Source: Saprospiraceae bacterium
GTDB lineage: Bacteria > Bacteroidota > Bacteroidia > Chitinophagales > Saprospiraceae
Assembly (NCBI GenBank): GCA_021738725.1
Contig: JAIPBE010000006.1
Coordinates: 42,069-106,068 of the forward strand
Direction of reading: 5' to 3'
DNA length: 64,000 nt
Shown: in pieces, positions 19,748 through 25,968 of the stretch
Layout: every line of letters begins with the position of its first letter
Numbering within the stretch: the stretch's first letter is position 1
Program-made: the position numbers and the translations under genes
The notes under the pieces: model-generated
The model's input: only the letters and a program-made list of their open reading frames with translations
Told to the model about the DNA's origin: nothing
Databases searched by the model: none

Positions 19748-19880
19748 CTACAACTGCCGCGCCGCAAACGTATCCCCCTCGTGCATATCCCCGGTCTTCA
19801 TCCCCTAGGTCAACCAGCGCATCCGCTGCTCCGAAGTGCCGTGGGTAAACGACTCTGGGACCATATACCCGATACGGGTG
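19748..19880 (-). pseudogene. 3'-end fragment of a YpfJ-like metallopeptidase gene (duplicate of the end of the 25.1 kb gene)
   Basis: Reverse strand reads ...[39 protein letters not shown]; about 90% nucleotide identity to the intact gene end by eye; in-frame TAG. Confidence 0.9.
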
Positions 19881-19961
19881 ATTTCCGATGAATAGGCAAA
19901 ACCGAGGCAATATCCGATGTGTACTTATCCGGAGTACTGTAGTTTTAGGGGAAAAACCAGC

Positions 19962-21656
19962 ATGACCTTCCCCTTTCGCCATTTTGAGGATCATATTAAT
20001 CAGACTATTCTGAAACGGGGGATGACGTATTTCCGAAAGGGCCATGTTGAAGAGGTGATTGAGCATGGCCATGGCGAATATGAGGCGTATGTCCATGGCA
20101 CGGAATCCTATTTGGTTCAGATCACCATCAAAGGGGAGAACGTCACAGACCATCGGTGCGACTGCCCCTTTGATCAAGGGCCAGTATGCAAGCATGTCAT
20201 CGCTGTGCTGTTTTCCATGCAAAAAGATGAACTCGACTTCGCAACTGAACCAAAACCGGTCAAGAAAACAGGACAGGCCAAAAAAACGGCCAGACGTATG
20301 GTGGAAGATATCCTGAAGGATACTCCACCGGAGGCTTTACAGGAGTTTTGTCGGGGATATGCCCGTAGTCACCACGATTTCCGCCAGTCGCTGATCCTCG
20401 CATTCCCCGCCCGGGAAGAAATGGCTGACAAGCAAACTTATGTTTCCATGATCCGGGCTATCCTCCGCAAGGGCATGGGGCGCATGGGTTTCATCGACTG
20501 GCAGGCTTCCCGGGAGGTGAGGCATAGAATCGAGGAAATCCTGGATATGGGCAAAAAAAAACTGGCGGAAGGACATGGCGATATTGCATTTGCCATTGCC
20601 ACCGCCATCTTGGAGGAAATGACGGCAAACATCGAAGACATCGACGATAGTGCATACAATTTCGAGCAATGCATTGAAGATGCTATTGAGATCATGGAAA
20701 AACTGGCCGATTCCTTTCCGGATCAACGACAGGCTCTGTTTACATATGCGGTGGATATGACCAGTTCACATGAATTTGAAGAATGGCGCTGGAAGTTTGA
20801 TCTGCTCGAGATCGCCCTGGCGAGTGCACGTACCACAGAGGAGTTTGCCATTGTCCGGTCTCTCGCACAAGAATGCGATCGAACACCCTATATGGGTGAC
20901 TGGAAAGAACTGCTGCTCTATCGCCTGGCTGTCAATGAATATGGAGAAGATGCGGGCAACCAGTTTCTGATGGAGCATTTGCACAATCCTCAGTTGCGTG
21001 CTTTTGCTTTCAGAGCCGCCATGAACAAACAACAGTTTGACAAGGCCAGACAGCTGGCCATGGAAGGGATCGATATATCTGAAGCAGCCAATGAAAAAGA
21101 ACAGGCCGGCTGGTATCGTCTTCTGCTGGAAGTTGCTGTGAAAACGGGAGACCAAAACGAGATCCTGAACAATGCACGATTTCTAGCAATCCATGATTAT
21201 CAAGATCGTGATCAACACTTGCAACTGCTCAAAGACAACCTGCCCGAAACGGAATGGAAAGCCTGGTTGTCAAGCATGATCGAGGAGGCGAGCAACCGTA
21301 AATATGCCTACCAGTCTACTGTACATGCTTTCCTGGTCTTTGATCAGCGCTGGGATGAGCTCTTCCAGGTGCTGAAAACCAATAATGAAAATGGACTGAT
21401 CGGGTTGGGCACGATCAAGAACTATGAATCCCAACTAAAAGAAAACTACAGTCACCAAGTGGCCCTTTTGTACCGGGATGATGTTCTGCGACATGTGGGC
21501 GATGCCAATCAACGAAAGGACTATGAAGAAATCGCCTATTGGATCCGAAGAATGAAAAAACTGGGGGCAAATGAGGAGGCTTCAGATCTGATCAACGAGC
21601 TGACCGCGAGGTTTCCTCGCAGGAGGGCCTTATTGGAAGAATTGGGACAGGTGTAG
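19962..21656 (+). CDS. SWIM zinc-finger protein
   Basis: SWIM motif HRCDCPFDQGPVCKHVIAVLF; long helical C-terminus. Confidence 0.85.
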   Translation: MTFPFRHFEDHINQTILKRGMTYFRKGHVEEVIEHGHGEYEAYVHGTESYLVQITIKGENVTDHRCDCPFDQGPVCKHVIAVLFSMQKDELDFATEPKPVKKTGQAKKTARRMVEDILKDTPPEALQEFCRGYARSHHDFRQSLILAFPAREEMADKQTYVSMIRAILRKGMGRMGFIDWQASREVRHRIEEILDMGKKKLAEGHGDIAFAIATAILEEMTANIEDIDDSAYNFEQCIEDAIEIMEKLADSFPDQRQALFTYAVDMTSSHEFEEWRWKFDLLEIALASARTTEEFAIVRSLAQECDRTPYMGDWKELLLYRLAVNEYGEDAGNQFLMEHLHNPQLRAFAFRAAMNKQQFDKARQLAMEGIDISEAANEKEQAGWYRLLLEVAVKTGDQNEILNNARFLAIHDYQDRDQHLQLLKDNLPETEWKAWLSSMIEEASNRKYAYQSTVHAFLVFDQRWDELFQVLKTNNENGLIGLGTIKNYESQLKENYSHQVALLYRDDVLRHVGDANQRKDYEEIAYWIRRMKKLGANEEASDLINELTARFPRRRALLEELGQV

Positions 21657-21794
21657 ATTTTACAGGAACCGTATTTCTGCGCCATATCGAGGCTGGAAAG
21701 GACGAAAAAATCAGATCAATAGCCACCACACAATATAGATGAAGGATAATACTAAAATGAATGGTATATCATGCACTATAACAGAATACTAAAC

Positions 21795-21882
21795 TAATGA
21801 ATGATTAAGCATACATAAGTATCTATCATATTTAACAGATTAGCCAAATATTATTAATATTTGTATGAGTATTCATTCATTA
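21795..21882. promoter_or_regulatory. AT-rich hipBA upstream region with inverted repeats
   Basis: TAATGAATGA (21795-21804) / TCATTCATTA (21873-21882) and CAAATATT-ATT-AATATTTG (21845-21863). Confidence 0.4.
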
Positions 21883-21901
21883 TTGCATTATATTGACCAT
21901 T

Positions 21902-23556: not shown

Positions 23557-24024
23557 AATCCGTCCAATTATACAGTTTGGTCAACACTGGTGGAACGTAG
23601 TAACGAATTCTCAAACGAAGTCGAGGCGGGGCGAAGGAATGTTCCTGCCCGTATGCCGGGGGTATAATTCCTTGGTTCCTTGATTCCTGGTTCCTGGTTG
23701 GATTCAGGTCTGGTAGGCGGTCTCAAGGGTCTGGCAGTTCAAGGTTCAAGGACGGAGCCTACTGGCCCGTCTAGTTCAAAGTTCAACGTGGGGCTCGTTG
23801 AACTTATGAAGAGCTCTTCGTACCGGCGTGCTTTAGCCGCCGCACCAGTAAGTGTTCAAATAGTTCATTGATTATTCCGAAAGAGGAAGGATGTTCCTGA
23901 TTCCTGATTCCTGATTTCTGGTTCCTGCGTTCCTGCGTTCCTGCGTTCCTAATTCCAAATTAAGCTACGGGATTGGTGATTCCGCTTCAAGACCTTGGCT
24001 GCAACTTTAAATTATTGATGTTGG

Positions 24025-24109
24025 TGCCGGTGTCTCACCGGCAGCGCGTGACGAGTGGCTCCAAGTATCGCTTTTATGGAATGGCAAGCATAGGCGGTGT
24101 CTCACCGCC
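24025..24109 (+). repeat. Twin-hairpin element copy 3
   Basis: TGCCGGTG-TCT-CACCGGCA and GGCGGTG-TCT-CACCGCC, loop centres 67 bp apart. Confidence 0.85.
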
Positions 24110-24482
24110 TTGTTGATCTATCAAGGCTGGGGAGATATACATATCGCTAGACCGGGAGAATGTTCCTACGTTCCTGCCTGCAAGCCGCAGGCTTGATTCC
24201 TGCGTTCCTGATTCCCGGTTCCTGATTCCTGCGTTCCTGGTTCCTGGTTCCTGATTAGACAAAGCCCGAGATTTCCGGATCCAGATGAACGGGCAAAATG
24301 TAGGAAGCTGTGAAATGGTAGCATGTCCCCCTCCCACACGAATGCCGGAACCGGAGAAGTCTGACTTCATGAGGGGGATAAAGGGGGAGGCGGAAAATTC
24401 CTTGGTTCCTGATTCCTGATTCCTGATTCCTGATTATGCTTCTGAACAAACCTTTGTTTCCACTAAAAACTATTGACGTTGG

Positions 24483-24566
24483 TGCCGGTGTCTCACCGGC
24501 AGCGCTAGACGAGTAGTTCCGTGTATCTCATTTTATAAATGGTGATCTTGGGCGGTGTCTCACCGC
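24483..24566 (+). repeat. Twin-hairpin element copy 4
   Basis: TGCCGGTG-TCT-CACCGGCA and GCGGTG-TCT-CACCGC, loop centres 67 bp apart. Confidence 0.85.
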
Positions 24567-25104
24567 ATTAGCGATCCACCAAGGCCAGAGAGATATACTT
24601 ATCGTTAGACCGGGGGAATGTTCCTGGTTCCTGGTTCCTGGTTCCTAGTTCCTGATTAGACAAGGCCCGAGATTTCCTGATCCAGATGAACGGGCAAAAT
24701 GTAGGAAGCTGTGAAATGGTAGCATGTCCCCCTCCCACACAAATGCCGGAACCGGAGCAGTCTGACTTCATGAGGGGGTTAAATGGGGAGGCGGAAAATT
24801 CCCGGTTCCTGTGTTCCTGATTTTTGACTTTTTCCACCAGGGCGACTGAAGTCACCCCTACAATCCCTCACTCTCAGCTTCTCATTGTCCCTCAGTCTCA
24901 AAGTCACAGGTTTTGCCTTGCTCCTTCCGCGGTCCTGATCCCTCGAAATAACGCAATAACGCCTTAACGAAATAACCCCGCTTGAGACCTCTTGGGAAAT
25001 GCTAACGCCCAAGACCCAACGCCTAAGACTGGCCCTCGGCCCTGTTCCTGTTTGGCCAGGTATGGTACGCAAATCACAAAGGACTGGCCGCCGAACAAAA
25101 TCAC

Positions 25105-25968
25105 TCACAACTGCCGCGCCGCAAACGTATCCCCCTCGCGCATATCCCCAGTTTTCATGCCCTTGGTCAACCAGCGCATCCGCTGCTCTGAAGTACCGTG
25201 GGTGAACGACTCGGGGACGACATACCCGCGACTGCGCATTTGAATGCGATCATCACCGATCGCCTGGGCGGCACCCAGCGCCTCTTCCAGGTCGCCCTCT
25301 TCCAGAAAGTTCTTCATCTTCTGGGCATGGTGGATCCACACGCCTGCCAGGAAGTCGGCCTGCAACTCCAGTCGCACCGAGAGGTCATTGCCCGCCGCCT
25401 TGGACATCCGGGCCTGCTGCTGGCTCACCTGACCGGTGATCCCCAGCAGATTCTGCACGTGGTGCGCGACCTCATGCGACACCACATAAGCCATGGCAAA
25501 GTCGCCGCTGGCACCAAACCGCGTCTTCAGCTCCTGGTAAAATCCCAGATCGATATACACCTTCTGGTCGGCCGGACAGTAAAACGGACCGGTCGTCGAA
25601 CTGGCATATCCACAGGCAGAACGGTCCTGGTCGGTGTACAACACCAGCGTCGGATGGGGGTAACTTCTACCCAATTGCTCCGGAAATAATTTGTCCCATA
25701 CGTCCTCCGTATCCTTGAGCACAACCCCGACAAAGGCAGCCATCTCGTCGTCTGCTGTGCCTGCCTGCTGGACACCGCTGGCTTCCGTGGCTGGACCATC
25801 GGAGCCCTGGAACTGAGACAACAGCTGTGACGGATCCTGACCCAGGAGCAGGGCAATGATCACGATCAGGATGGACCCGATCCCCAGACCTGCTCCGACC
25901 TTCTTTGCCGTGGTACCCCTGCGCCGGTCATCGACATTCTCACTGGATTCTCTGCCTTGCCATTTCAT
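25105..25968 (-). CDS. YpfJ-like neutral zinc metallopeptidase
   Basis: [15 protein letters not shown] zinc motif; [29 protein letters not shown] C-terminus. Confidence 0.93.
   Translation of the reverse strand: [287 protein letters not shown]

Follow-up and report, generated by a model that had tools for sequence, protein, structure and literature searches.

Background

Genomic hotspots for defence and toxin-antitoxin (TA) genes combine a fixed flank with varying cargo. In E. coli K-12 the e14 prophage resides at icd, and the icd tail that it displaced measures 163 bp (PMC6379469); att identity blocks in protein-coding genes reach ~250 bp (PMC10111431).

The locus described here belongs to a Saprospiraceae bacterium (GCA_021738725.1; genome G000, contig C47) and was analyzed within a stretch of 64,000 nucleotides, referred to as the window (JAIPBE010000006.1, positions 42,069 to 106,068, forward strand); coordinates are those of the window unless another contig is named. 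It resembles e14/icd in that a gene, here a ypfJ-like metallopeptidase gene, is intact, a copy of its 3' end of similar length stands at the far border, and foreign DNA lies between the two. The features of the e14/icd type found at ypfJ are an intact target with a direct, distal tail, and cargo that is absent from the same site in relatives. It differs in that e14 is a characterized, excising prophage, whereas the ypfJ locus comes without a recombinase, a known empty site or a second example. The insert at ypfJ works like the e14 type, and was not classed as one because a recombinase was sought and not found. With the extended att blocks (PMC10111431) the locus shares a repeat, of 135 bp, that falls within the published length, and a target gene that stays functional; the definition of those blocks, however, drew on an integrase and on an uninterrupted attB as reference, and the ypfJ locus has neither. 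The likeness to defence/TA hotspots lies in the fixed polA-ypfJ flank and in a cargo that differs by species, being hipBA here and a restriction/defence island in the congener G002. The far flank, in contrast, is not conserved: it is an exonuclease gene here, a remnant in G002 and DUF1761 in G001.

The reading preferred here, with a rough probability of 0.55, is that the repeated gene end is an insertion scar, formed by site-specific or homologous recombination between the 3' end of ypfJ and DNA that bore a ypfJ tail. Incoming DNA with its own ypfJ tail would have recombined into the 3' end of the gene around or after the split from the G002 species; ypfJ would have stayed whole, and one tail would have been left at the distal border of the insert. 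The recombination may have been site-specific, of the e14-at-icd type, or homologous through the shared tail, and the anatomy would be identical, in that homologous integration of a tail-carrying circle would look like site-specific integration.

Anatomy of the repeated ypfJ tail

The ypfJ-like gene (25105-25968, minus strand) encodes a neutral zinc metallopeptidase of 287 aa (Pfam PF04228, Zn_peptidase, E=1.4e-109). By self-BLAST of the window, its 3' end (25094-25228, minus strand) matched 19737-19871 as a direct repeat (plus/plus) of 135 bp at 88.1% identity (E=4.5e-43), and a repeat search of the window recovered the same pair as direct-repeat family D7. Both copies are read on the minus strand and lie 5.4 kb apart. 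The detached copy comprises codons 248-288 of the gene (the last 41) and ~11 bp past the stop, and over the 123 coding bases the two tails are 89.4% identical. The initial annotation had reported a recurrence of the ypfJ-like 3' end in the same orientation, about 90% identical and with an in-frame TAG, and these observations were borne out.

The detached tail is a dead pseudogene fragment. Its Lys269 codon has changed from AAG to TAG, which places an in-frame internal stop at 19805-19807, and alignment with four congeners identified two further missense changes, V250M and R277H; where the congeners place a difference on the side of the intact gene, it is silent in every case. The terminal stop is also TAG in the fragment, as in G001 and G002, and TGA in the intact gene. 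In alignments against shuffled sequence, no homology was detected beyond the 5' edge of the fragment (p=0.94 with strict scoring, 0.10 with lax scoring) or beyond its 3' edge (p=0.44 strict, 0.33 lax).

The initial annotation had itself considered that the fragment might be what is left of a second full gene. A second ypfJ, arisen by tandem or paralogous duplication and since mostly deleted, would fit the common reading direction and the pseudogene changes; this origin is nevertheless very improbable, as no homology extends past the 135 bp on either side and none of the 98 Saprospiraceae genomes with ypfJ carries such a gene. Tandem or segmental gene duplication was also rejected as a candidate: the homology does not continue into neighbouring DNA or into the rest of the gene. 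An insertion scar is supported by the direct orientation of the repeat, its coincidence with the exact gene end, and the combination of an undamaged gene and a dead tail at the distal end.

The insert and the surrounding repeats

The insert is 5.2 kb long and lineage-specific, and the tail copy is at its far edge. Profile matches and a repeat search placed a SWIM gene, hipB, hipA and a repeat array, nursery B, between the tail copies, in agreement with the initial annotation. The gene for the SWIM zinc-finger protein (19962-21656, plus strand; PF04434, E=2.4e-6) is in an ORF that opens at 19917; its likely start is the ATG at 19962, because a homologue in G006 aligns from there, and the edge of the tail fragment is 90 bp upstream of this position. 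The hipB-like antitoxin gene (21950-22249, plus strand; HTH_3, E=1.7e-9) is followed by a gene for a hipA-like kinase toxin (22243-23556, plus strand; HipA_C, E=9.5e-50, with Couple_hipA also matched). The pair has the features of a HipBA module: the kinase carries both HipA domains, N- and C-terminal, and its ORF overlaps that of the HTH antitoxin by 7 bp. Nursery B occupies 23640-24830 and contains direct repeats D4 and D5. Among the ORFs of the insert only SWIM, hipB and hipA were recognized by domain profiles, and no recombinase gene was found there. The GC content of the insert is ~50% and that of ypfJ up to ~59%; much of the neighbourhood resembles the insert, so that composition is no mark of foreign origin.

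Relatives of the cargo were found at other places. SWIM matches in the congeners have only 22-26% identity and are all at other loci, and no SWIM relative in another genome lies beside a ypfJ tail or within 1.5 kb of hipBA. A distant second SWIM-domain protein (22-26%) is encoded at G000:C59:154602-156239 and at one locus in each of G001-G004. Relatives of hipA are 71% identical in G004, at a different locus, and 70% in G006, and in both genomes the hipBA relatives have other apparent TA pairs as neighbours. In G004 (L072:6500-13300) the relative is between repeat arrays of opposite orientation, beside pairs that by eye are HigBA-like and GNAT-type; in G006 (L073:3000-15000) the SWIM relative that matched best (33%) lies ~2.2 kb away from it.

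Dispersed repeats are dense in the region and are inverted relative to each other on the two sides of the insert. Within the stretch that follows the intact ypfJ (24935-25093) is an intergenic repeat of a dispersed family, matched 40+ times per genome in G000, G001 and G002; the family, represented here by 24935-25050, is rare in G004 and was not found in G003. Between the exonuclease gene and the tail copy, 19531-19724 holds an inverted relative of the units of arrays A and B (inverted pairs I1-I4 and I6), which also has dispersed copies. Elsewhere in the window, 26146-26315 and 31303-31482 form a 180-bp direct repeat (81%) upstream of polA and of the gene at 31489, with relatives in G002 and G004.

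The density of dispersed repeats makes a copying error a strong rival to insertion. Repair or template switching may have copied the ypfJ tail next to the SWIM gene, creating a new junction there as the arrays rearranged the locus, with no mobile element involved; the abundance of repeats inverted across the sides of the insert, the sharp edges of the 135-bp copy and the different neighbours in every congener would all fit. Such an event leaves the match to the exact gene end unexplained, however, and self-comparison found no comparable copy of a gene tail elsewhere in the window; we place its probability somewhat below even. The initial annotation had offered recombination between nurseries as its alternative, which is a possible one. 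The repeats near the two tails have opposite orientation, which argues against a simple tandem duplication that took in downstream DNA.

The locus in related genomes

Four congeners (G001-G004) were compared. Each carries one copy of ypfJ and no second tail, contrary to the possibility, also raised initially, that relatives carry both copies. Across the family, ypfJ was matched in 98 of 298 Saprospiraceae genomes, and a detached tail was present only in this one; in G188 and G223, where the ypfJ match is split, the pieces are contiguous and separated by frame or stop breaks. The polA gene adjoins ypfJ in 5/5 congeneric genomes, and the side past the ypfJ stop is different in each. SWIM and hipBA are absent from the ypfJ site in 4/4 congeners. 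In G001 a transporter gene, SulP-like by eye, stands between ypfJ and DUF1761, and in G003 and G004 other, unrelated genes are downstream. In G002 a restriction/defence island of ~45 kb begins right after the ypfJ stop (C177:24370-69122; L016, L068, L069), with WYL, two GmrSD, DUF1156, McrBC, RT, sacsin-like and helicase genes. With cargo this different, including hipBA here and a defence island in G002, the locus is a variable edge at which TA/defence cargo collects, in two species at least. The absence of SWIM/hipBA from the locus in G001-G004, the single detached tail among 98 genomes and the variability of the locus support the insertion scar.

The far flank of the insert is a DEDDh/RNase_T exonuclease gene (18670-19284, minus strand; PF00929, E=1.4e-13). 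G002 retains the last 110 bp of this gene: the 3'-end remnant (C177:69013-69122) forms the end of the island, is collinear with ypfJ and has the same orientation as the exonuclease gene of this genome. Collinearity and orientation together indicate that the order exonuclease - ypfJ - polA probably predates the split of the two species, and suggest that the exonuclease gene faced ypfJ before it. An empty site, with ypfJ followed directly by this dnaQ-like exonuclease gene, was looked for and found in none of the four congeners: no relative has ypfJ beside 19285-19736 or the exonuclease gene, and within the genus 19285-19736 gave only short matches to dispersed repeats; the collinear remnant in G002 would nevertheless fit a formerly uninterrupted site. 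The inserts of G001 and G002, at the same location, have no repeated tail or att-like repeat.

Age of the event and identity of the native tail

The ypfJ genes of this genome and G002 are ~86% identical, and the intact tail and the fragment are 89.4% identical. Among four topologies the AU test favoured that joining the fragment to the ypfJ of its own genome (p=0.77), with that joining it to G002 not rejected (p=0.39). Together these values point to an old event, dating from about the time of the G002 split or shortly after it. In the intact gene, identity to G002 is 86.2% in the tail and 86.0% in the body; the tail is no more diverged than the body, so no mosaic is visible.

At third positions (n=41) the fragment is 80.5% and the intact tail 70.7% identical to G002. 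This difference and the TAG stop are suggestive of the fragment as the native tail, and the retention of the TAG of G001 and G002, as expected of a native tail, counts in favour of an insertion scar. A dispersed repeat close after ypfJ both here and in G002 weakly suggests, on the other side, that the intact copy has kept its native surroundings; as the sequence that follows this copy is a dispersed repeat with so many matches, synteny is nearly uninformative on which tail is native.

Search for an integrase or related elements

No match to tyrosine recombinases (PF00589) was found on C47 or on the G001 and G002 contigs that bear the locus. A detached tail was absent from 80 genome loci and from the 97 other Saprospiraceae genomes with the gene. 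Viral contigs contained no ypfJ tail, and phage records contained no tail of this lineage, with matches only to distant peptidases or hypothetical proteins; matches to the tail among plasmids were remote homologues from other taxa. The search for other elements that use the ypfJ 3' end, as had been proposed initially, accordingly returned none from phage records, viral contigs or Saprospiraceae genomes.

These results bear most directly on the site-specific form of insertion taken by itself. Here the integrase of an e14-like element would have acted within the ypfJ 3' end; the element would have supplied a new tail and displaced the native one to its far end, and would later have lost the integrase and most of its genes. 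The anatomy is that of e14/icd, and the TAG stop and third-position identity of the fragment are as expected for a displaced native tail. Against this stand the failure to find an integrase on the locus contigs or a detached tail in other genomes, phage records and viral contigs, the G001 and G002 inserts without an att-like repeat, and the host-type dispersed repeats within the insert, and we regard this form alone as less likely than not. The old integrative element with a lost integrase proposed in the initial annotation stands in part: the tail does mark the far edge of DNA absent from this site in all four congeners, with the gene intact, the fragment dead and an exonuclease gene beyond. 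On the other side, no tyrosine recombinase was found on the locus contigs, no empty site in the relatives, and no second user of the tail. An integrase step is possible, and repeat-associated copying is about as likely.

Still broader is the idea that the ypfJ 3' end is the att site of an undescribed Saprospiraceae integrase family, by which TA/defence cargo is loaded again and again into the interval from ypfJ to the exonuclease gene, the tail being the sole surviving att scar; this is a long shot.

Significance

An insertion scar remains the best explanation, with the recombinase, the empty site, a repeated tail in the G001 and G002 inserts and a mosaic gene all sought and not seen. What survives is a fossil scar, and its site is variable and collects TA and defence genes. 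On present evidence it looks like an ordinary insertion scar, of a familiar type; should the integrase reading prove true, ypfJ would be a further target, beside icd and tRNA genes, whose tail is replaced on integration. The locus offers a clear example, in a genus rich in repeats, of TA and defence genes gathering at a single chromosomal edge, and its scar allows a rough date.
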